The position numbers were made by a program, and so were the translations under genes. From Aureispira sp. CCB-E (GTDB lineage Bacteria; Bacteroidota; Bacteroidia; Chitinophagales; Saprospiraceae): 64,000 nt of DNA. Below are positions 43,594 through 56,395 of the stretch, one piece after another (position 1 is the first letter of the stretch; the number at the start of each line of letters is the position of its first letter). A model generated the notes under the pieces. The model was not told where the DNA came from. It saw only the letters and a list, made by a program, of their open reading frames with translations, and made no database searches. Location of the stretch: the NCBI RefSeq assembly GCF_031326345.1, contig NZ_CP133671.1, positions 868,001 to 932,000 of the forward strand, in the 5' to 3' direction.

Positions 43594-46500
43594 ATGACTG
43601 CTTCTATTCAAGTTTTATTGAAACCACACATCGTTGATGTAAAAGGCAAAAAGGTTGAAGAGAAATGCCTAAAACAATTAGGGATTACAACAGGAAAGGT
43701 AAAAAGCGCGAAGCTTTTTTCAATCAACTACAATGCAAGTTCAGCCGAACTACACGACTATGCCACTCGTTGTATTAAAGATGTTGTAACAGATGAAATT
43801 TTGGTTAATGAGTTGTATGCACCGACAGATTATCAATCTTGTATTGCGATTGCTCAATTGCCAGGGGTAACTGATGATGAAGGGATGTCTGCTCAAATGG
43901 CATGGGTAGATTTCTTTAATATAGAAGCGGATGTAAATACACAGCAAATTTTTACGCAAGTAGTGTATTACTTTGAGGAAAAGCTTTTGGAAGGAGAGTT
44001 GAAATTGATTGCCAAACGCTTGTTGGGAAATCCTTTGATCAATCACTTTACCTATGCTTATCAAGACGAAACGGGAACATTGAGTTTCAAACCTTATGTG
44101 CCTGAAGTGAAAATGACAACGGATGCTACGACAGAGATTGTTAACTTGAATCTAAGTGATGAGGATTTGGTACAATTGTCGAAAGAAAAGGTGTTGGCTC
44201 TGAATTTAGCCGAGATGAAAGCCATTGTTGGTTATTATAATAATGACAAGACAAAAGAAGCACGTCAAGCAGTAGGTTTGCCAATAGACCCTACCGATTG
44301 TGAGTTGGAAATACTGGGGCAGACTTGGTCAGAACACTGCAAACACAAGGAGTTTAATGCTGCCATTCATTATAAAAATACAGAAACAGGAGAAGAGAAA
44401 ACCATCAATTCTCTATTTAAAACGTATATCAAAGGAACAACATCTACGGTTCAAGAAAGTCTAGAAGCAAACAACAATAAGTGGTTGGTGAAGGTGTTTT
44501 CTGACAATGCTGGAGTGGTTAAAGCAACCAAAGATCAGCTGTTTGTTTGGAAAGTAGAAACGCACAATTCTCCATCTGCCTTAGATCCTTACGGAGGGGC
44601 TATTACTGGTATATTGGGTAATAATCGTGACCCCTTAGGTACAGGAGTAGGTGGTGCAAAGTTATTGTTTAATACCAATGTACTTTGTTTTGGTAATCCA
44701 GATTATGACAAACCTTTGTTGACGGGGCAATTACACCCTCGCCAAATTATGGAAGGAGTGGTGTCTGGAATTGAAGATGGCGGGAACAAATCTGGTGTTC
44801 CAACCGTAAATGGCTCGGTTGTTTTTGACGATCGTTATAGTGGTAAACCTTTGGTTTATTGTGGAACAGGTGCTTTAATGCCTTACGACTACAAAGGAAA
44901 ACCATCTTGGGAGAAACCAATTGATGCTGGAGATAGAATTATTGTTGCAGGTGGACGTGTGGGGAAAGATGGTATTCATGGTGCAACGTTTTCTTCTATA
45001 GAAATTGATGAGCATTCTCCATCTTCCGCAGTTCAAATTGGAAGTCCAATTACACAGAAAAAAGTAGCAGACTTTTTAGTAAAAGCTTGTTTGGAAGGAT
45101 TGGTGAAGTGTAGTACCGACAATGGTGCTGGTGGTTTGTCTTCTTCTATTGGTGAATTAGCGACTATTTCTGGAGGAGCTATTGTACACCTAGAAAAAGT
45201 GCCTTTAAAATATGCAGGATTAAAACCTTGGGAGATTTTTGTTTCGGAATCTCAAGAGCGAATGTCATTGGTTATTGAGGAGGATAAAGTAGCGCCTTTG
45301 TTTGAAATGGCCAAAGCAATGGAGGTGGAATTGACCGACATTGGAGTGTTTACAGACAATGGTTATTTGGATATTCGCTACAATGATAATAAAGTAGCTT
45401 ATTTGGATATGGAATTCCTACATGAAGGTGATCCTCAAAAAGTGATGTATGCACAATGGGATAAGCCTTCTTTAAAAGAACCAACTTTGCCAACGATAGA
45501 GAATTATAATGAGGTATTGGTTCAATTAATGGGAAGTCTAAATATATGCTCTAGAGAGTCTATTATTCGTCAGTACGATCATGAGGTAAAAGGTAAAACA
45601 ATTATCAAACCGTTGATGGGACCCAAAGGAAAAGCACCACAAGATGCTGCAATTATGCGTTTTGGGTTCAATAGCTTTGAAGGGGTGGCTGTTTCTAACG
45701 GAATTTTGCCTAGATACGGCGATATTGATGCTTATGAAATGTCGGCAGGGGCTTTTGATGAAGCCGTGCGTCAAATTATTTCAGCAGGAGGAAGTTTGCC
45801 AAATACAAAGTCGGATGATGGTATTTTTTGGTCGGTAAACGACAATTTCTGTGTACCTGATTCAGAGTATCACGAAGTCAGTAATCCAGATGGAAAATTG
45901 AAATTGGCTAAATTGGTTCAGATGTGTGAAGCATTGAATGATATGGCAACTTATTTCGATATTCCTCTAACATCGGGCAAAGATAGTATGAAAAATGACT
46001 TCAAAGCAGATGGTGTTAAAATATCGGTACCGCCAACAATCTTGTACTCAATGACAGCGAAGGTAGACGATGTTAGAAAAACAGTTACGTCGAACTTCAA
46101 AGCAGCAGGAGATTTAGTTTATCAATTGGGAACAACTTATGATGAATTAGGTGCTTCAGAGTTTTATAGCTTGTACAACGAGCTAGGGGCAAATGTACCT
46201 AAAGTACGCAAAGAAGCGGCTAAAGAACTGTACTTAAATGTTATGAAAGCGAATGCGGCTAACCTAATTGAATCGAGTCATGATTTATCCGATGGTGGAC
46301 TAGCAGTTGCTTTGGTAGAGTCGGCTTTTGGAGGCGAGTTTGGATTGGAAGCTAATTTGGATGCTTTAGGTGATTGGACAGATTTGGTAAAACTATTTTC
46401 TGAATCACATTCTCGTTTTGTAGTGTCTATTCGTCCAGAGAATAAAGCGGCATTTGAGGCTATTTTTGGCGACAAGGCTTACTACTTAGGAAAAGTAACC

Positions 46501-46599
46501 GCTGAAAAGACAATTAACATTACTTCTAATAATAATAACTTGATTGATTTACCAACAGAAACCCTACTAGATGCTTGGGCAGGAGGTTTGGTATTGTAA
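43594..46599 (+). CDS. purL: Phosphoribosylformylglycinamidine synthase, PurS+PurL part without glutaminase domain
   Basis: This 1001-residue protein matches the large PurL through its first three domains. The N-terminal PurS-like domain (about 1-170) is fused. The linker domain has GQTWSEHCKHKEF near 242. Two AIR-synthase-type halves follow, with HNSPSALDPYGGAITGILGNNRD near 327, STDNGAGGLSSSIGEL near 508, TSGKDSMKND near 795 and ESSHDLSDGGLAVALVES near 893. It ends in DAWAGGLVL, just where the glutaminase domain begins in the roughly 1300-residue fused enzyme. That domain is encoded by the next gene, 16 bp downstream. Together they turn FGAR, ATP and glutamine-derived ammonia into FGAM. Confidence 0.93.
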   Translation: MTASIQVLLKPHIVDVKGKKVEEKCLKQLGITTGKVKSAKLFSINYNASSAELHDYATRCIKDVVTDEILVNELYAPTDYQSCIAIAQLPGVTDDEGMSAQMAWVDFFNIEADVNTQQIFTQVVYYFEEKLLEGELKLIAKRLLGNPLINHFTYAYQDETGTLSFKPYVPEVKMTTDATTEIVNLNLSDEDLVQLSKEKVLALNLAEMKAIVGYYNNDKTKEARQAVGLPIDPTDCELEILGQTWSEHCKHKEFNAAIHYKNTETGEEKTINSLFKTYIKGTTSTVQESLEANNNKWLVKVFSDNAGVVKATKDQLFVWKVETHNSPSALDPYGGAITGILGNNRDPLGTGVGGAKLLFNTNVLCFGNPDYDKPLLTGQLHPRQIMEGVVSGIEDGGNKSGVPTVNGSVVFDDRYSGKPLVYCGTGALMPYDYKGKPSWEKPIDAGDRIIVAGGRVGKDGIHGATFSSIEIDEHSPSSAVQIGSPITQKKVADFLVKACLEGLVKCSTDNGAGGLSSSIGELATISGGAIVHLEKVPLKYAGLKPWEIFVSESQERMSLVIEEDKVAPLFEMAKAMEVELTDIGVFTDNGYLDIRYNDNKVAYLDMEFLHEGDPQKVMYAQWDKPSLKEPTLPTIENYNEVLVQLMGSLNICSRESIIRQYDHEVKGKTIIKPLMGPKGKAPQDAAIMRFGFNSFEGVAVSNGILPRYGDIDAYEMSAGAFDEAVRQIISAGGSLPNTKSDDGIFWSVNDNFCVPDSEYHEVSNPDGKLKLAKLVQMCEALNDMATYFDIPLTSGKDSMKNDFKADGVKISVPPTILYSMTAKVDDVRKTVTSNFKAAGDLVYQLGTTYDELGASEFYSLYNELGANVPKVRKEAAKELYLNVMKANAANLIESSHDLSDGGLAVALVESAFGGEFGLEANLDALGDWTDLVKLFSESHSRFVVSIRPENKAAFEAIFGDKAYYLGKVTAEKTINITSNNNNLIDLPTETLLDAWAGGLVL

Positions 46600-46615: not shown

Positions 46616-47452
46616 ATGACAACAGTAAAATCTTTAGTGATAACAGGCTTCGGAATCAATTGTGAAGAAGAAATGGCAGCTGCTTATCAATTGGCTGGAG
46701 CGATACCAGAAATTGTCCATTTAAATGAGATTCTATTGGGACAAGTTTCTATTCATGATTATGATATTTTAAACTTTCCTGGTGGCTTTTCTTTTGGCGA
46801 TGATTTGGCATCTGGAAAAGTAGTTTCTAATAAAATTAAGTTTAAAAAATTACCTTCTGGAAACGTTTTATTGGATGAAATTAAACAGTTTTTGGAAGAT
46901 GGTAAGTATATTTTAGGCGTGTGTAATGGTTTTCAAATGTTGGTGAGAATGGGGCTATTGCCGAATACGAACCATGACTTTGAGCCAGAAGCTACATTGA
47001 GCAATAACAACTCAGGAAAGTTTGAAGATCGTTGGGTTTATTGTAAGGTTAATAGTACGACCAAAACGCCTTTCTTGAAAGGAATAACTAAGATTGCTTT
47101 GCCTGCTCGTCATGGGGAGGGTAAGTTAATTTTTATGGATGATGCCATGCGTGCAAAAGTGCAGGCAGAAAGCCTAAATTGTTTGACTTATTGTACCGAA
47201 GATGGTACGGAAACAGCAGATTATCCAGCGAATCCCAATGGTGCTGATTTGAATTGTGCTGGTTTAACCAACCCAACAGGACAGGTGTTTGGATTGATGC
47301 CACATCCAGAGGCTTATTTGAGTTTGTACAATCATCCAAATTGGGGACAAATTAAACGAAATAATCCAAATCATAACGAAGCGGGAGAAGGATTAACTAT
47401 CTTTACAAATATTGTAGAGCATATCAAAACGAAGAAGCTGGCAACAGTTTAA
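46616..47452 (+). CDS. purQ: Phosphoribosylformylglycinamidine synthase, glutaminase subunit
   Basis: This 278-residue class I glutamine amidotransferase has Cys103 in LGVCNGFQ, and His230 and Glu232 in PHPEAYL. It starts with VKSLVITGFGINCEEEMA and has FPGGFSFGDDLASG near residue 60. At 278 residues it is longer than the usual free-standing PurQ (about 225) and closer to the C-terminal domain of the fused PurL. It supplies ammonia to PurL, from which it is separated by 16 bp, so the two are clearly co-transcribed. Confidence 0.92.
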   Translation: MTTVKSLVITGFGINCEEEMAAAYQLAGAIPEIVHLNEILLGQVSIHDYDILNFPGGFSFGDDLASGKVVSNKIKFKKLPSGNVLLDEIKQFLEDGKYILGVCNGFQMLVRMGLLPNTNHDFEPEATLSNNNSGKFEDRWVYCKVNSTTKTPFLKGITKIALPARHGEGKLIFMDDAMRAKVQAESLNCLTYCTEDGTETADYPANPNGADLNCAGLTNPTGQVFGLMPHPEAYLSLYNHPNWGQIKRNNPNHNEAGEGLTIFTNIVEHIKTKKLATV

Positions 47453-47732: not shown

Positions 47733-49352
47733 ATGGATCTTTTGATTCCGATTAAACGAGCTTTAATTAGCGTTTCAGACAAAACAGGAATAGTTGAATT
47801 AGCACAATCTTTGGCAGATGCAGGCTGTGAGATTATTTCGACAGGAGGAACACAACGAAAACTAGAGGAAGCAGGCATTACAACAACAGAAATTTCTACT
47901 GTGACAGGAAATCCTGAGGCTTTTGGTGGTCGTATGAAAACAATTTCTTTTAACATCGAGTCAGCTTTGTTGTTTGATCGTGAAAAAGATGCCGAAGAAG
48001 CGGCTGCACTTAATATTGAGCCTATTGATTTGGTGGTTTGTAACTTGTACCCATTTCAAGAAGTCCTCAAAAAAGGAGCTGACTTTGAGACACTAATTGA
48101 AAACATTGATATTGGTGGTCCAACCATGATTCGTGCTGCTGCAAAGAACTTTAAGTATGTGGCGACAGTAACACAACCTTCGGATTATACAGAGTTGATG
48201 GTACAATTAAAAAGCCACAAGGGGGCTTTGACTTATGATTTTCGCAAAAAATTGATGACCAAAGCATTTAATCATACGGCTGACTACGATGCATTGATTG
48301 CTACCACAATGGACAAAGAAATTGGCGTCAATTCTTTGCGATTGGGCTTTGAAGAAGGTATTGATTTGCGTTATGGTGAGAATAGTCATCAAGCTGCTCG
48401 TTTTTACAAAGAAAAAAATGCAGACAATTCTTTGTATGATTTGAATGTTTTGCATGGAAAAGCCTTGTCCTTTAATAATATTCTAGACATTAATGGAGCG
48501 ATTGAAGCCATCAAAGAATCTACTCGTCCTGCTTGTTCTGTAATTAAACACAGCAATCCTTGTGGACTTTGTGAAGGAGACGATCAAGCAGAATTGTTGC
48601 AATTGGCTTGGGCTGGGGATCCTATCTCTGCATTTGGTTCTATCATCGCATTTAATAAAAAGGTGACCTTTGAAACAGTGCAGTTTTTTGAATTGAACAA
48701 TGAGGACAAGAGCAAACGCAAATTTGTAGAGGTTGTTATTGCACCTGCATTTACACCAGAAGCGTTGGTTTATTTACAACAACACAAAAACCTTCGTATC
48801 ATAGAGTTTGATGCTGCTAGCCTAACTGGTCACATGGACTTGCGTTATATGAATGGTAGTTTGTTGGCACAAGATACCGACAATGAGTTGCACAACAAGT
48901 TGGATGTAGTTACAGAAGCTCCTGTTGATATGGAGGTAGAACAACCATTGATTGAGTTTGGCTTGCGTGCCATCAAAACAATTAAGTCAAATTCTATTGC
49001 TATTGTTCGTTTTAAAAATGGTTATGCTCAGTTGTTAGGAATGGGAGCAGGACAACCCAACCGATTGATTGCAACTAAGCTATCTATTGAGAAAAGCCGT
49101 GAAAACCTACGCAATGAATACACTGGAGCAGCCGAAGATTTTGAAGCTTATGTAGCTGAAGAATTGGCAAATGCATGGCTAATTTCAGATGCCTTTTTCC
49201 CATTTGCAGATAATGTGGAGATAGCTGCCGCAGCAGGTATCCGAAAAATTGTTCAACCAGGAGGTTCTATTCGAGACAAGTCGGTTATTGCAACTTGCAA
49301 TGATTTGGGAGTATCAATGGTCTTTACAGGCATTAGACACTTCAAACATTAG
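47733..49352 (+). CDS. purH: Bifunctional AICAR formyltransferase / IMP cyclohydrolase
   Basis: This 539-residue protein has an N-terminal MGS-like IMP cyclohydrolase domain (RALISVSDKTGIVELAQSL, CEIISTGGTQRKLEEAGI, GGRMKTI, NIDIGGPTMIRAAAKN) and a C-terminal AICAR transformylase (LRYGENSHQAARFY near 210, KHSNPCGLCEGDD near 270, DAFFPFADNVEIAAAAGI near 487, QPGGSIRD). It performs the last two steps to IMP using 10-formyltetrahydrofolate. It is slightly longer than the common 510-530 residues. It lies between spacers containing repeats and hairpins, so it may have its own promoter; I could not identify one. Confidence 0.95.
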   Translation: MDLLIPIKRALISVSDKTGIVELAQSLADAGCEIISTGGTQRKLEEAGITTTEISTVTGNPEAFGGRMKTISFNIESALLFDREKDAEEAAALNIEPIDLVVCNLYPFQEVLKKGADFETLIENIDIGGPTMIRAAAKNFKYVATVTQPSDYTELMVQLKSHKGALTYDFRKKLMTKAFNHTADYDALIATTMDKEIGVNSLRLGFEEGIDLRYGENSHQAARFYKEKNADNSLYDLNVLHGKALSFNNILDINGAIEAIKESTRPACSVIKHSNPCGLCEGDDQAELLQLAWAGDPISAFGSIIAFNKKVTFETVQFFELNNEDKSKRKFVEVVIAPAFTPEALVYLQQHKNLRIIEFDAASLTGHMDLRYMNGSLLAQDTDNELHNKLDVVTEAPVDMEVEQPLIEFGLRAIKTIKSNSIAIVRFKNGYAQLLGMGAGQPNRLIATKLSIEKSRENLRNEYTGAAEDFEAYVAEELANAWLISDAFFPFADNVEIAAAAGIRKIVQPGGSIRDKSVIATCNDLGVSMVFTGIRHFKH

Positions 49353-49540: not shown

Positions 49541-50839
49541 ATGGATTGCTTAACAAAATTTGATTCTCCTCAGCTAAAAACGCTTCATAGAGGAAAAGTT
49601 AGAGATAGTATCCGTATTGATGATAATACACGTATGATTGTTGTAACGGATCGTATTTCAGCATTTAATAAAAAAATAAAGACAGCTATTCCTACCAAAG
49701 GGGCTGTTTTAAATGGTATTGCCAATTTCTGGTTTGAGCAAACAAAGCATATTATAGACAATCACGTCATTGAGCAAGTAGATGATTATGTGACGTTAGT
49801 AAAAGAAGCAGAACCTATTCGTGTAGAAATGGTAGTACGTGGATATTTGACGGGCTCTATGTGGAGAGGATATGAAAATGGAAAACGCCAAATTAGTGAT
49901 GTAGTCGTTCCTGATGGAATGGTCAAAAATCAAAAATTTGATCAACCTATTTTAACACCAACGACAAAAGATGACGATGATTCTGAAATCAACGAGCAGG
50001 GAATTTTAGAAGCAGGTTTGGTAAGTGCAGAAATTTATCAACAGATGAAAGCTAAAGCCATTGAGTTGTTTACATTTGGTAGTGAATTCTTGGCAGAACG
50101 AGGAATTGTATTGGTGGATACAAAATATGAGTTTGGCTTGCTAGATGGCAAGTTGATTTTGATTGATGAAATGCATACGCCTGACTCTTCTCGTTTCTGG
50201 AGTTTAGAGGATTATCAAGCGAATCCATCAACAGCAGAGCAAATTGATAAGGAATTTGTTCGCCAATGGATGCTAGCGAATCAAGTAAATGGAGAGGTGC
50301 CAACTATTCTGTCACCAGAAGTAGTCGCAGAAACCAGTCGTAGATACCAAGAAATTTACAAAGCAGTTACAGGGAAGCCTTTTAGTTTGGTAGACCTACC
50401 TTCTAAAGTTCGTATTTATAATAACCTTGTTAAAGCGGGCGTATTGAAGCCTGGTTTTATCGGAATTATTATGGACGATGAAGAAGATTTGGACGACTGT
50501 AAAGTTCTAAAAGATTTGGTAGAAGAATACGACCTCTGTGTAGATATGCGCGTGATTTCGGCAGATAGAAATGGAGAGCGAATCTTAGACTTAGCCGCCG
50601 TTTACAATACTTCTGTAGAACCTGTAGCAGTGATTGCTGTTGGTCCAGATAGTTTAGGGATGGCTTTGGTTGCCAATCTCAGTGTTCCTGTTATTGATGG
50701 GGTAGGAGCATCAATGGATAGTGTTGTTCGAGCAACCGTTTCTAGCCTAAATATTCCTAGTATTCGTGAGCAAATGGCTCAAGAGATTGTAGAAATGAAA
50801 CAATCGTTAGCAGATGCAGATGCTGTGATTCGAAATTAG
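49541..50839 (+). CDS. purC: SAICAR synthase fused to a degenerate PurE-like domain
   Basis: Residues 1-280 are a normal PurC: HRGKVRDSI near 16, VTDRISAFNK near 35, EMVVRGYLTGS near 96, ILTPTTKDDD near 138, LVDTKYEFG near 191, DEMHTPDSSRFW near 209. It ligates aspartate to CAIR. Residues 305-432 align by pattern with PurE of the animal PAICS type: FIGIIMDDEEDLDD (305-319), RVISADRNGER (337-347), VIAVGPDSLGMALVANLSVPVI (364-385). The PurE signature GSxSD is replaced by DDEED (312-316). The catalytic His of SAHR/SAHK is Asp342. The AGxxxxLGxxMSGxT stretch is reduced. This part is therefore probably not an AIR carboxylase; a structural or regulatory role is possible. No other PurE or PurK is in the window. 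Confidence 0.9.
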   Translation: MDCLTKFDSPQLKTLHRGKVRDSIRIDDNTRMIVVTDRISAFNKKIKTAIPTKGAVLNGIANFWFEQTKHIIDNHVIEQVDDYVTLVKEAEPIRVEMVVRGYLTGSMWRGYENGKRQISDVVVPDGMVKNQKFDQPILTPTTKDDDDSEINEQGILEAGLVSAEIYQQMKAKAIELFTFGSEFLAERGIVLVDTKYEFGLLDGKLILIDEMHTPDSSRFWSLEDYQANPSTAEQIDKEFVRQWMLANQVNGEVPTILSPEVVAETSRRYQEIYKAVTGKPFSLVDLPSKVRIYNNLVKAGVLKPGFIGIIMDDEEDLDDCKVLKDLVEEYDLCVDMRVISADRNGERILDLAAVYNTSVEPVAVIAVGPDSLGMALVANLSVPVIDGVGASMDSVVRATVSSLNIPSIREQMAQEIVEMKQSLADADAVIRN

Positions 50840-51310: not shown

Positions 51311-52672
51311 ATGATAATTGATGCTATTTCACCTTTAGATGGTCGATACGCTGGAAAATTAGTTCCTCATAGAAAATATTTTTCTGAAAAAGGATTGATG
51401 TACTACCGTTGCAAGGTAGAGCTACTATATGTGTTAGCCTTGGATGAGGCAGGACTATTTGAGCCATTGAATGCAACAGAAAAAGCAAACATTCAAGATT
51501 GTATTGACAATTTCACAGATGTGGACTATCAGCGTATCAAAGAGATAGAAAGTGTTACCAACCATGATGTGAAAGCTTGTGAGATGTTTTTGAGAGAGCG
51601 TACAGAATTGCGCGATGTAAATATGCTGCATTTTGCCTTGACATCGGAGGATGTTAATAATCTGGCGTATAACTTTATGCTAAAAGATTATCTAGAAGAA
51701 CAGCACTTGCCACAAATTGAAGAAGTATTAAATAAATTGATCGAATTGGCAGAGGCTTGGAAGAATATTCCTTTCCCATGCCGTACGCACGGTCAAAAAG
51801 CGTCTCCAAGTACTGCGGGGAAAGAGTTTGCAGTATTTATTAACCGCATTACTCGAATTTACAAATCTTTAAAAAGCTTTACTTTTTTAGGCAAAATTAA
51901 TGGTGCAGTAGGAAATTACTCTGCTATGTTGTCTGCCTTTCCTGATTTTGATTGGTTGACATTTGCGCATAACTTTTTGACAAAGCATGGTTTAGAACCT
52001 AATATTGCAACAACTCAGATCGAAGACCACGATACATTTGCTACGTACTTTAACTGGACGCGCCAGATTAATAATATTGCAATGGATTTGGACGTAGATT
52101 GCTGGTTGTATATTTCCAAAGATTTATTTTCAGAGAAAGTAAAAGCAGGAGAGGTTGGTTCTTCTACCATGCCACATAAGGTAAATCCAATCAACTTTGA
52201 GAATAGTGAAGGAAATCTAATGTTGTCTAACTCTATGTTGACCTTTTTGTCTGACAAGTTGTGTCGTTCTAGAATGCAAAGAGATCTTTCTGACTCAACA
52301 GTTCAACGCAATATGGGCTCCGCTTTGGCATATGCTTCATTGGGTATGACAGAGTTATTAAGAGGGTTGAACAAATTAAAAATTAATGAAGAGAATTGCC
52401 GTCAGGAATTGCAAGATAGCCCAGAATTATTAGCTGAACCAATCCAAACCATTCTTAAAATTGTAGGGGTAGACGATCCATATACTTTATTGAAGAAAGT
52501 TTCTCGTGGACAAAAACCAACTAGAGAAATGTTAATGGATTTGGTAAAAGGCTTGGATATAGAGCAATCTGTAAAAGATAGAATTTATCAGTTAGAGACA
52601 GTAGATTATATTGGAGATGCCGTTCGTATCTGTGATCTAACAATCAAAACAGCTAAGGAAATTATGCAGTAA
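51311..52672 (+). CDS. purB: Adenylosuccinate lyase
   Basis: This 453-residue fumarase/aspartase-superfamily protein has the signature SSTMPHKVNPINFENSEGN near residue 280, TSEDVNNLAYN near 112 and RTHGQKASPSTAGKE near 158. It begins with the PurB-typical ISPLDGRY. It cleaves SAICAR to AICAR and adenylosuccinate to AMP, releasing fumarate. The length (about 455) matches the E. coli-type PurB. It is flanked by long spacers and probably has its own transcription start within the structured leader. Confidence 0.95.
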   Translation: MIIDAISPLDGRYAGKLVPHRKYFSEKGLMYYRCKVELLYVLALDEAGLFEPLNATEKANIQDCIDNFTDVDYQRIKEIESVTNHDVKACEMFLRERTELRDVNMLHFALTSEDVNNLAYNFMLKDYLEEQHLPQIEEVLNKLIELAEAWKNIPFPCRTHGQKASPSTAGKEFAVFINRITRIYKSLKSFTFLGKINGAVGNYSAMLSAFPDFDWLTFAHNFLTKHGLEPNIATTQIEDHDTFATYFNWTRQINNIAMDLDVDCWLYISKDLFSEKVKAGEVGSSTMPHKVNPINFENSEGNLMLSNSMLTFLSDKLCRSRMQRDLSDSTVQRNMGSALAYASLGMTELLRGLNKLKINEENCRQELQDSPELLAEPIQTILKIVGVDDPYTLLKKVSRGQKPTREMLMDLVKGLDIEQSVKDRIYQLETVDYIGDAVRICDLTIKTAKEIMQ

Positions 52673-52894: not shown

Positions 52895-54145
52895 ATGAAA
52901 ATAGCAATAATTGGCTCGGGAGGAAGAGAACATGCCTTGGCTTGGAAACTTGCAAAAGATTTAGGCGAACAAGCCGTATACGCCTTGCCTGGAAATGGTG
53001 GAATTCCTAATAGTCATCCAATAGACATTAGCGATTTTGAAGCTATCCAGACGTTCTGTGAAGCCAATGATATTACTTATATTTTTGTAGGACCAGAAGT
53101 TCCTCTTGCTGATGGAATTGTAGATTATTTTAATCAAACAACAATCAAAGCATTGGGACCGTGCAAGGATGCGGCACGTTTGGAAGGTTCTAAGATTTTC
53201 TCCAAGAATTTTATGAAAAAATATGGCGTAGCAACTGCTGCTTTCCATACGTTTTCTGAAGTGAGTGAAGCCGAAGAAATTGTACATGAAATGGACGGTG
53301 ATTTAGTCATTAAGTACGATGGCTTGGCTGCTGGCAAAGGTGTTTTTGTTTGTGATAATGTGCAGGAAGCTTTGGATGCTTTGGATGAGATGAGAGCACA
53401 GTATGGTGAGGAATGTCCGTTTCTGATTGAAGATAAAATTGTTGGGGACGAAATCTCGATTATTGGTTTTACAGATGGGCAAAATATTCAATTATTACTC
53501 CCTTCTCAAGATCACAAGCAGCTGAACGATGGTGATACAGGACCTAATACAGGTGGAATGGGCGTGATGTGCCCTGTCCCGTTTTGGAATGATGATTTGG
53601 CGCAAGAAATTGACGAAAAAATTGTTCAGCCTACTTTGAAAGGGATACAAGCCGAGAAAATGAATTACAAAGGAGTGATTTATTTTGGTATTATGATGGG
53701 AGAAAATGGACCAGAATTATTAGAATACAATGTTCGTTTTGGCGATCCAGAAACAGAGGTATTGTTGCCTTCTTTGAAAACAGATTTGTCAAAAATTGTC
53801 AAGGCTTGTTTGAATGGAACATTGGGCGAATTGACCTTGGAATTTGAGGACGGCTTTTTTGTAGATGTTGTACAAGTATCGGGTGGTTACCCCAAAAGTT
53901 ATCAAAAAGGTTATGAAATTCACGGTTTGTCTGAAGTAAACGATGCCATCGTTTTTCATGCTGGAACCAAAGTACAAGAGGGCAAAATCGTTACCAATGG
54001 TGGACGTGTTTTAAACATTGTTGCACAAGGTGAAACATTAGATGCGGCTATCCAAAAAGCGTATGAGGAATGCAAAAAAGTAAGCTTTAAAGATAATTTT
54101 TATAGAAAAGATATTGGTCAACGTGTTTACAAAGTAGTTCAATAA
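52895..54145 (+). CDS. purD: Phosphoribosylamine-glycine ligase
   Basis: This 416-residue ATP-grasp enzyme begins with MKIAIIGSGGREHALAWKL, the GAR synthetase start. It has FVGPEVPLADGIVD near residue 63, KYDGLAAGKGVFV near 140, GDTGPNTGGMGVMCPVP near 210 and EYNVRFGDPETEVLLP near 268. It joins glycine to phosphoribosylamine to make GAR. Its stop codon touches the purN start (TAA then ATG), so the two are translated as a coupled pair; the next enzyme acts on its product. Confidence 0.95.
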   Translation: MKIAIIGSGGREHALAWKLAKDLGEQAVYALPGNGGIPNSHPIDISDFEAIQTFCEANDITYIFVGPEVPLADGIVDYFNQTTIKALGPCKDAARLEGSKIFSKNFMKKYGVATAAFHTFSEVSEAEEIVHEMDGDLVIKYDGLAAGKGVFVCDNVQEALDALDEMRAQYGEECPFLIEDKIVGDEISIIGFTDGQNIQLLLPSQDHKQLNDGDTGPNTGGMGVMCPVPFWNDDLAQEIDEKIVQPTLKGIQAEKMNYKGVIYFGIMMGENGPELLEYNVRFGDPETEVLLPSLKTDLSKIVKACLNGTLGELTLEFEDGFFVDVVQVSGGYPKSYQKGYEIHGLSEVNDAIVFHAGTKVQEGKIVTNGGRVLNIVAQGETLDAAIQKAYEECKKVSFKDNFYRKDIGQRVYKVVQ

Positions 54146-54715
54146 ATGAAAAAGAAAATCGCGATATTTATATCGGGGCGAGGAAGTAATATGAGGGCTA
54201 TTGTTGAGCAATGTCAACAAGGTATTTTAAAAGACTTGGCAGAAGTAGTGTTGGTTTTTGCCAACAAGCAAAGTGCTGCTGGTTTAGAATATGCCAAAGA
54301 ATTAGGATTGGAGACACAATGGATAGAATCTAAGGGACTAAAACGAACTACTTTTGATGAAAAGGTATTAACTTTATTGTCTAATTACGATTTGGATTAT
54401 ATTGTGTTAGCAGGATATATGCGTGTCTTGTCCAGCAAATTTGTTCAAGCTTATCCAAAGCAGATTATTAATATTCATCCTGCGGATACGACCCAACACC
54501 AAGGTTTAAATGGCTATGGTTGGGCGTTTGAAAATGGTTTGGACGCAACAAAAGTAACCGTCCATTATGTAGATGAAGGATTAGATACGGGAGCTATTAT
54601 AGCGCAGCATCCTGTTGATCTTAAAGGGGCAGATACTTTACAAGAAGTTGAGCGTCGAGGATTGGCAGTAGAGCATTATTTTTATAGTAAAACACTTCAA
54701 GGAATTTTTGAATAA
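54146..54715 (+). CDS. purN: Phosphoribosylglycinamide formyltransferase
   Basis: This 189-residue protein has the formyltransferase core: IFISGRGSNMRAI at the N-terminus, LAGYMRVLSS near 88, Asn109 and His111 in NIHP, and Asp147 in HYVDEGLDTGAII. These are the catalytic Asn, His and Asp of GAR transformylase. The loop after NIHP is ADTTQHQGLNGYGWAFE, unlike the common SLLPxFxG; the start of the usual formyl/GAR loop is therefore altered. It uses 10-formyltetrahydrofolate. It abuts purD with no gap. Confidence 0.9.
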   Translation: MKKKIAIFISGRGSNMRAIVEQCQQGILKDLAEVVLVFANKQSAAGLEYAKELGLETQWIESKGLKRTTFDEKVLTLLSNYDLDYIVLAGYMRVLSSKFVQAYPKQIINIHPADTTQHQGLNGYGWAFENGLDATKVTVHYVDEGLDTGAIIAQHPVDLKGADTLQEVERRGLAVEHYFYSKTLQGIFE

Positions 54716-54949: not shown

Positions 54950-56395
54950 ATGTGTGGAATTGTAGGTTTTATAGGTCGTGAAAAAATAGTATACGACTTG
55001 ATGATGGGCTTAACAGCATTGCAGCATAGAGGTCAAGATGCAGCTGGGATAACAACGTTCAAAAAACTATTTCATGAGAAGAAGGGATTAGGTTTGGTGA
55101 ATAATGTTTTTGAAGAAAAGCACTTAGAGCGCTTGTTAGGGGATATTGGCATTGGGCATGTGCGTTATACAACACATGGCTCCAATGAGTTAAAAAATGC
55201 ACAGCCTATTGGGACAAACTATCCTTTTGGTATTTCAATGGCACATAATGGAAATATCACTAATTTTAATGAAATCAGCGAACACTTGTATAGAGAGCAT
55301 CATATCTTGCCCAATACAACCAATGATTTGGAGTTGATTTTATATACTTTTGTATCTGAATTGCGTTCGTCTAAAGATTTGGGAAATGTAACACCCAATG
55401 ATATTTTTGATGCCGTAGAGGCTACACAGAGAAAAGTGCATGGTGCTTATGCTGCGGTAGCTATTATTGCTAATCATGGTTTGTTAGCATTTTGTGATCC
55501 TAACGGAATTCGCCCTATGATCTTAGGCAAAAAAGAAACTAAAGAAGGAGTGATATATGGTGTTGCCTCTGAAACAGTTTGTTTTGACCACTTGGGGTAC
55601 GAAGTAGTTCGTGATTTGGAACCAGGCGAGATGATTTTTATTGATAACAATAAGAAAATATATTCTAGAAAAGGACATAGCAATGGTCAACGATTCTGTG
55701 TATTTGAATTTATCTATTTTGCTAGAGAAGATTCTTATTTGCATACTCGCTTAGTTGCTGGACAACGTGTAAAAATGGGACGTCAGTTGGCAGAAAAAGT
55801 TCGAGCAGCAGGGTTAGAACCAGATATCGTAATTGATGTTCCAACATCGGGATATTTTGCTGCTTCGGGGCTAGCAGAAGAGCTACAGATTCCACACCGT
55901 AGGGGATTGGTTAAAAGTAACTATATTGGACGAAGCTTTATTTCGTCTAAGCAGTCGGAACGAGAAGATATTGTTAAACGTAAGTTGAATCCTATTTCTA
56001 AAACAGTTGAGGGAAAGAAAATAGCAGTGGTAGACGATTCAATTGTTCGAGGAACGACTTCTAAGCGGATTGTACAAATTCTAAGAGAAGCTGGTGCTGC
56101 CGAAATTTATTTCATCTCTGCGGCACCTCCATTGCTCAATCCTTGTATTTATGGAATTGATATGTCTGTTACCACAGAGTTGATTGCTGCGAATAAGACC
56201 GTAGATGAAATTAGAGATTACATTGGAGCAGATGCACTGATTTATCAATCTTTGGAAGAATTGCAAGCGCAATTTAATGAGATGGGATTAAATACTTGTA
56301 TGGCTTGCTTGTCTGGTGATTATCCTACCGCCAATGCAGCACTTGCTTTGCGCCAAATTGAAGAAGAACGATTAGAAGCAAAGAAACAAGGTTAA
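54950..56395 (+). CDS. purF: Amidophosphoribosyltransferase
   Basis: This 481-residue enzyme has Cys2 as the glutaminase nucleophile directly after the start Met (MCGIVGFIG), so no propeptide is encoded. The phosphoribosyltransferase signature VVDDSIVRGTTS lies at 360-371. Four cysteines sit where the [4Fe-4S] ligands are in the Bacillus-type enzyme: Cys250 (FCVFEFIYFAR), Cys399 (NPCIYGID), and Cys450 and Cys453 (TCMAC). An iron-sulfur form is therefore likely, although such enzymes usually also have a propeptide. It catalyses the first committed step of purine synthesis from PRPP and glutamine. It closes the cluster. Confidence 0.95.
   Translation: MCGIVGFIGREKIVYDLMMGLTALQHRGQDAAGITTFKKLFHEKKGLGLVNNVFEEKHLERLLGDIGIGHVRYTTHGSNELKNAQPIGTNYPFGISMAHNGNITNFNEISEHLYREHHILPNTTNDLELILYTFVSELRSSKDLGNVTPNDIFDAVEATQRKVHGAYAAVAIIANHGLLAFCDPNGIRPMILGKKETKEGVIYGVASETVCFDHLGYEVVRDLEPGEMIFIDNNKKIYSRKGHSNGQRFCVFEFIYFAREDSYLHTRLVAGQRVKMGRQLAEKVRAAGLEPDIVIDVPTSGYFAASGLAEELQIPHRRGLVKSNYIGRSFISSKQSEREDIVKRKLNPISKTVEGKKIAVVDDSIVRGTTSKRIVQILREAGAAEIYFISAAPPLLNPCIYGIDMSVTTELIAANKTVDEIRDYIGADALIYQSLEELQAQFNEMGLNTCMACLSGDYPTANAALALRQIEEERLEAKKQG

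Follow-up and report, generated by a model that had tools for sequence, protein, structure and literature searches.

Why should a SAICAR synthase (PurC) carry at its end a PurE-like domain whose catalytic signature has been erased, and what, if anything, does that domain still contribute? The question is raised by one gene of the purine cluster in the window, the 64,000-nucleotide stretch of Aureispira sp. CCB-E analysed here (contig NZ_CP133671.1, positions 868,001 to 932,000), for which the original prediction, made from the DNA letters alone, offered three answers: a pseudo-enzyme organising its complex, a domain binding a regulator, or an AIR carboxylase working by an altered mechanism. 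Class II PurE carboxylates AIR directly with CO2, without PurK. Excerpts of the literature term AIR carboxylase almost exclusively eukaryotic (PMC4177761) and bacteria dependent on PurK together with class I PurE (PMC3261824), class II PurE being already known from Treponema denticola (PMC9376930).

The gene is an unbroken open reading frame of 432 amino acids, its length and coordinates as first proposed (Table 1). Up front it encodes, as had been claimed, a SAICAR synthase: residues 15-247 match SAICAR_synt (PF01259) at 3e-70 and the protein passes TIGR00081 (196.5 bits, cut-off 189.9), while staying under the cut-offs of NCBIfam PRK12607 (333.5 vs 371) and PRK13961 (249.5 vs 251). The best solved match of this half is 1a48, and Foldseek adds 2cnq and 1obd. 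Sequence resembling the linker that follows forms the protein end in three PurE-less genes of relatives (L195, L196, L197) and is weaker in L019.

Table 1. Features of the purine locus, in positions of the window
Feature	Position	Strand	Evidence
Presumed PurL, 1001-aa ORF adjoining the PurQ-like gene	43594-46599		ORF length and position
Glutamine amidotransferase, PurQ-like	46616..47452	+	GATase_5
PurH	47733..49352	+	Profile match
PurC fused to a putatively catalytically dead PurE-fold domain, whole gene	49541..50839	+	ORF, profile matches, model
SAICAR synthase (PurC) domain, residues 1-282, yeast Ade1 / mycobacterial PurC-like	49541..50386	+	SAICAR_synt 3e-70, 1a48, Foldseek
Linker helix (model), residues 288-298, KVRIYNNLVKAG region	50402..50434	+	Model, alignment
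Predicted PurE-fold domain, residues 305-432, class II (PAICS-type) origin, active site apparently lost	50453..50836	+	AIRC 4.7e-7, model, Foldseek
Former phosphate-binding loop MGSxxD, now MDDEED, residues 311-316	50471..50488	+	Alignment; roles from excerpts of PMC9376930
Former SAHK with general-base His, now SADR, residues 340-343	50558..50569	+	Alignment
Former VAGRSNGLGG loop, now VGPDSLGMA, residues 367-375, two codons shorter	50639..50665	+	Alignment
Long C-terminal helix (model), residues 406-431	50756..50833	+	Model, alignment
PurB (adenylosuccinate lyase)	51311..52672	+	Profile match
PurD; its weak ATP-grasp match is not PurK	52895..54145	+	Profile match
PurN	54146..54715	+	Profile match
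PurF-like	54950..56395	+	GATase_6 and phosphoribosyltransferase domain

The rest of the protein had been read as a PurE fold, placed behind PurC as in animal PAICS, and structure prediction bears this out. AIRC (PF00731) matches residues 307-407 at 4.7e-7, with 29.9 bits against a cut-off of 30, and with 32.3 bits in a whole-genome search. The AlphaFold2 model (74-row alignment) has a mean pLDDT of 93, and from residue 301 onwards 13 of 14 ten-residue blocks stand at 90 or above, the remaining one at 86. Foldseek matches the complete model to full-length human and invertebrate PAICS (6yb8, 4ja0; TM about 0.5) and its PurE domain to PurE chains such as that of T. denticola (3rg8), with TMt values of 0.66-0.69. 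Since intact relatives among the aligned sequences could have biased this model, residues 301-432 were also folded from the single sequence. The result, at a low pLDDT of 56, reproduces all nine secondary-structure elements and their order; PurE or PAICS accounts for 48 of the 50 best Foldseek matches listed for it, all of them with E above 0.001. On models, Foldseek matches and profile scores alike, residues 305-432 are predicted to keep the PurE fold. The flavodoxin-like layout common to PurE and receiver domains prompted a response-regulator-like reading of IIMDDEEDL, which was dropped, given that a congener (G205) has Pro at the position of Asp370, that most dead versions of the domain lack the acidic cluster and that Foldseek returns PurE.

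A one-genome-per-species scan for intact PurE domains returned 79 named loci spanning Cloacimonadota, Calditrichota, Marinimicrobia, Chlorobiota, Bacteroidota, Spirochaetota, Armatimonadota and other groups, its patterns demanding [LIM]SAHKNGE or VIA[VI]AGRSN, so that decayed forms could not appear. Contig ends interrupt six of these loci. The remaining 73 are complete, and every one is a PurC-PurE fusion: 70 pass a strict motif test, and three have a variant PurC motif. All 73 keep SAHK and S-N-G-L-G with its flanking Gly. The PurC halves of three intact-type fusions (L137, L145, L146) read DCSR or DAAR in place of DSSR. Because the intact PurE half of L077 finds its best solved matches in PAICS (4ja0, 2h31) and T. 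denticola PurE, ahead of class I PurEs, domains of this type are taken as class II. When 50 genomes with intact fusions were searched for PurK at E <= 1e-30, none was found in 49, the sole exception being an Opitutales MAG (L142); among 60 genomes drawn from the window's order, by comparison, the same threshold finds PurK in 52, and 47 pass the curated cut-off. SAHK, AGRSNGLG and a genome without PurK, the marks of a class II ancestor, occur together in the intact relatives and not in the window protein. These comparisons show, as far as sequence can, that the window's fused domain is of class II (PAICS-type) ancestry. The PurE halves of the two intact fusions scanned (L077, L105) miss the NCBIfam purE cut-off, so automatic annotation may name only PurC in such genes.

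Measured against these relatives, the losses in the window protein are concentrated where catalysis takes place. According to excerpts of PMC9376930, PAICS is an octamer; in the human enzyme AIR is surrounded by Met272-Asp277, Ser301-Lys304 and Val328-Leu335, where the general base is His303 and the phosphate lies among Ser274, Ser276, Lys304 and Arg331, and His303Tyr abolishes complementation. The window protein reads M311-DDEE-D316, S340-A-D342-R343 and V367-GPDSLG, substitutions that had been named correctly at the outset, although the third motif had been scored against a class I consensus and the loss of the second GSxSD Ser (now E315) carries little weight, since that position is Ser in just 36 of the 73 intact fusions. 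Seven of the 18 columns that match the active site of human PAICS are kept, as against 28 of 52 other columns that are invariant in seven intact relatives of the order. Across the 73 intact fusions 38 domain columns are at least 95% uniform, and the window protein keeps 24; nine of its 14 changes fall in active-site loops, including G312, S313, H342 and K343, each of them invariant in 73 of 73 and all replaced here. Relative to class II proteins (VAGRSNGLGGALAANLS) the third loop differs in its AGRSN part and by a two-codon gap, with LG-ALxANLS largely kept, and ahead of the last helices about 26 residues (NxNSSLxMPSxTPAxT...) are deleted; D316, S340 and A341 are retained. TIGR01162 scores 28.9 bits against a cut-off of 149.6, a model on which intact L077 also reaches just 109.5. 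Lacking the residues of GSxxD, SAH(K/R) and the AG-loop expected of a PurE or AIR carboxylase, the fused domain appears to be catalytically dead, and the window protein would no longer unite both PAICS activities in one chain.

How the organism might manage without it is suggested by the rest of its genome. That no second PurE or PurK accompanies the fusion is true of the cluster, but not of the genome, where an intact PurE and PurK lie side by side at C1:4113683-4115255, about 3.2 Mb from the fusion, the PurE being class I by its solved-structure matches. Among the matches listed to P0001 in 198 genomes of the order, fusion-type PurC occurs in two families; nine genomes of the window's genus (g1) and 20 of family f12 were then searched. 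Intact fusions (MGSxSD, SAHKNGE, VA/IA-GRSNGLGGALAANL) are present in one member of the window's genus (G198), one of its family (G117) and five of f12 (G076, G098, G110, G028, G085). The fused PurE is decayed in six assemblies of the window's genus (G000, which is the window's own, G199, G205, G200, G202, G203) and in three of genus g35 of f12 (G133, G104, G011), and is wholly gone from G041. Whether the altered domain always accompanies a separate PurE had been raised by the original prediction, and the answer is uniform: all ten genomes with a decayed or lost fused PurE, the window's included, have a separate PurE and PurK, whereas in the seven with an intact one neither another PurE nor a PurK passed the cut-off. 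These 17 genomes of clear fusion state, in which G199 and G000 represent the same species, supply just two or three phylogenetically independent contrasts, nearly always in the expected direction and too few to give a sign test statistical power. Left out of the count were G092 (gene cut by a contig end; PurE and PurK not found), G201 (PurE and PurK present, fusion not found), G154 (unfused-type PurC, with PurE and PurK), G204, nine f12 genomes with no PurC match, and three genomes treated below (G311, G298, G378). Three of the seven intact genomes (G098, G110, G085) give weak purK-model matches, far under cut-off, in other longer ORFs; some of the seven are 82-90% complete, with G198 at 98% (three contigs), G117 at 100%, G028 at 98% and G076 at 93%.

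No PurC match turned up in some other members of the two groups. G204, a 97% complete genome of the window's genus, shows no PurC match, no PurE over cut-off and no PurK, and its gene content suggests an organism possibly unable to make purines. Nine of the 20 f12 genomes (G054, G065, G116, G122, G128, G138, G142, G146, G150), three of which are more than 90% complete (G054, G065, G128), give no match to PurC (searched with P0001) or to PurE, and none over cut-off to PurK.

Decay of the domain is graded. AIRC scores descend from 125.6 bits in intact L077 and 109 in G198 through 78-81 in G200, 30-32 in the window protein and 27.6 in G205 to 17-19 in G202, with no AIRC match for G203 and G011. 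Three more genomes, G311, G298 and G378, came to light when 199 members of the window's family were searched, and in these PurC stops after the linker; in their loci (L195, L197 and L196, respectively) a purB-like start follows soon after it, so the PurE domain has been deleted. Their PurC lies inside the fusion-type clade, that of G311 beside the window's genus (support 98). Fusion-type PurC forms a single clade apart from the order's sampled unfused PurC, and within its tree the domain has been completely lost at three separate places: G041, G311 and G298/G378.

Within the window's genus the decay has played out at one locus. The gene order purQ-like, purH, purC, purB, purD, purN is common to G198 and G205, and also matches in G200, G202 and G203 as far as the fragments reach. 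PurC trees group the six members of the genus (100; 95 in a second tree) and place intact G198 with the dead G000 and G205 (SH-aLRT 90 and 94; 93 and 94 in the second tree), a placement repeated in a PurH+PurB tree (81/99) that does not resolve the remainder; these supports, from 81 to 99, are mostly below star level, and the outer branches are poorly resolved. With an intact version nested among dead ones and the dead G200, G202 and G203 outside, a single origin of the dead state was judged unlikely, and at least two inactivations in the genus are likely. Since an active site destroyed in this way would hardly be restored, both systems were probably present in the genus to begin with, after which G198 probably lost PurE and PurK and the other members the fused site, by different lesions and at least twice; parsimony without the no-regain argument counts three changes of the intact state (47-row tree). 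The g35 lineage is a further case of inactivation. The PurK of the window's genus and that of g35 form separate clades, on a tree whose deeper branches are weak.

Where it survives, the dead domain is under purifying selection. Maximum-likelihood codon estimates of its omega are 0.058 (0.024-0.123) for G000-G205, with PurC at 0.022, and 0.032 (0.011-0.078) for G133-G104, with PurC at 0.049; omega = 1 is rejected for both (2dlnL 86.5 and 78.1). A counting method puts the domain at 0.12 and 0.032, and G133-G011 and G104-G011 give 0.11 and 0.18, all of them approximate values, as dS is near or at saturation for several and saturated in most remaining pairs; class I PurE stands at 0.006 (one pair, dS saturated). 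Under neutral simulation 4.3-7.5 stops would have accumulated, and the probability of there being none, as is the case, is 0.0003-0.011. The pairs were chosen as both keeping the domain, and such survivors bias omega and the stop-codon test towards constraint. The domain's dN relative to that of PurC is 4.0-fold in G000-G205 and 5.5-fold in G202-G203, compared with 1.45-1.65 in two intact pairs and 0.8-1.7 in dead g35 pairs; constraint is therefore relaxed but real in the window's genus and looks restored in g35. At least six of seven dead versions share 22 columns, all outside the active-site loops, among them K289, R291 and L296 of the linker, Y330, Y355-N356, E360-P361, L376, P383, L403-N404 and R409. 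In G200 (L042 / L193) a stop removes about a dozen end residues of a half-decayed domain, and the frame beyond is still recognisable. Loss of catalytic residues under maintained selection, as sampled from survivors only, agrees with the pseudo-enzyme that had been suggested and lends support to the organising role proposed for it.

We think it moderately probable that the fused class II PurE, redundant and dead, has been kept as a structural or assembly part of PurC. The ancestor would have been a bacterial PAICS-like bifunctional protein, PurC with class II PurE, and in the window's lineage the conversion of AIR to CAIR would fall to class I PurE and PurK, encoded apart from it; as these can carry it out, the fused PurE would have become redundant and its active site would have been lost. 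Octameric PAICS is taken to be held together by its PurE core. Purifying selection on a dead domain means that it still matters for the protein, and by analogy with that core its most likely job is structural: it would buttress PurC or hold PurC in an oligomer. The domain may be entrenched rather than newly useful. Against a structural role stand the complete losses in three lineages, from which it follows that PurC can do without the domain, the early stop in the last helix of G200, the faster evolution of the domain than of PurC in the genus, and, as regards one conserved octamer core, a C-terminal helix that is kept in the window protein and shortened in G202, G203 and the g35 versions. Three separate complete losses, together with omega pairs drawn from survivors, weigh against the structural reading and for a passive relic.

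Such ordinary decay is the main rival, although we hold it to be unlikely: the domain would have no role of its own and be on its way out, its constraint reflecting only that a C-terminal extension must fold without harm to PurC. The graded AIRC series, the complete losses (one of them in G311, sister to the window's genus), a dN in the genus 4 to 5.5 times that of PurC, the truncation in G200 and the choice of surviving pairs all sit well with it. It is harder to reconcile with omega values of 0.03-0.06 for which omega = 1 is rejected, with a dead g35 domain whose constraint, measured against that of PurC, is about the same as in intact ones, or with the absence of stops where four to seven would be expected under neutrality. 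An improbable reading is an adaptor, the dead class II domain forming a hetero-assembly with the separate class I PurE (or PurK) and so docking it to PurC; if so, unstable N5-CAIR or CAIR would be handed on to PurC, and a bifunctional enzyme would have been replaced, independently in two lineages, by a three-protein complex built on its own corpse.

Slightly more doubtful again is a regulatory domain whose emptied pocket binds another metabolite or a metal and tunes PurC. Conservation of a non-catalytic domain would suit this, as would the acidic MDDEED loop, suggestive of a cation, that G000 and G205 have in common; yet the loop is absent from G200, G202 and g35 and partial in G203, so that no common new site is visible, and the segment ahead of the last helices is deleted. 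It is very improbable that the domain still works as an AIR carboxylase or N5-CAIR mutase through other residues. D316, S340 and A341 are retained, and in the class I PurE of A. aceti replacement of the His by Asp leaves some activity, if only traces (excerpts of PMC9376930); but G312, S313, His342, Lys343 and the AGRSN loop, invariant or nearly so in 73 intact fusions, are changed, a segment is missing, and a normal PurE and PurK are encoded elsewhere in the genome, on which grounds we reject the altered mechanism first entertained. An assembly or sequencing artefact is already refuted: a second, separately assembled genome of the species (G199) has an identical gene, and G205 has the same lesions.

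Among known systems animal PAICS (2h31, 6yb8, 4ja0) is alike in its PurC-PurE order, its class II PurE ancestry and its full-length Foldseek match; it differs in that the window's PurC half is nearest yeast Ade1, its PurE half is seemingly dead and its host is bacterial, and full-chain superposition is so poor (rmsd about 23 A, TM 0.50) that the domains may be arranged differently. Closer are the intact bacterial fusions (L077-L155, G198, G117), of the same gene family, order and linker and, in G198, at the same locus, which differ from the window protein in their intact active-site residues and, in 49 of 50 genomes, by the absence of a detected PurK. The class II PurE of T. denticola (3rg8) represents the type of the ancestral domain and shares the fold, whereas the window's version lacks the catalytic residues and about 26 others and is fused to PurC. 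Methanobacterial PurE-PurE' also joins a less typical PurE-like domain, suggested to be catalytic or structural, to a purine enzyme, that enzyme being an archaeal PurE rather than PurC (excerpts of PMC3261824). A dead PurE domain on PurC is not described in the titles and abstract openings of the matches listed from the open-licence literature on bacterial PurC-PurE fusion, class II PurE and PurE pseudo-enzymes.

The PAICS-like fusion of PurC to class II PurE is thus widespread in bacteria, mostly in genomes without PurK, and in the window's genus the state of one locus ranges from an intact fused carboxylase in a genome without PurK, through a half-dead form, to several dead forms in genomes with PurE and PurK. 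Dead versions are maintained by selection in two lineages and have been deleted in three others. This is a compact natural experiment in the turning of a catalytic domain into a pseudo-enzyme, in which the fused carboxylase probably became redundant, and then died, more than once.
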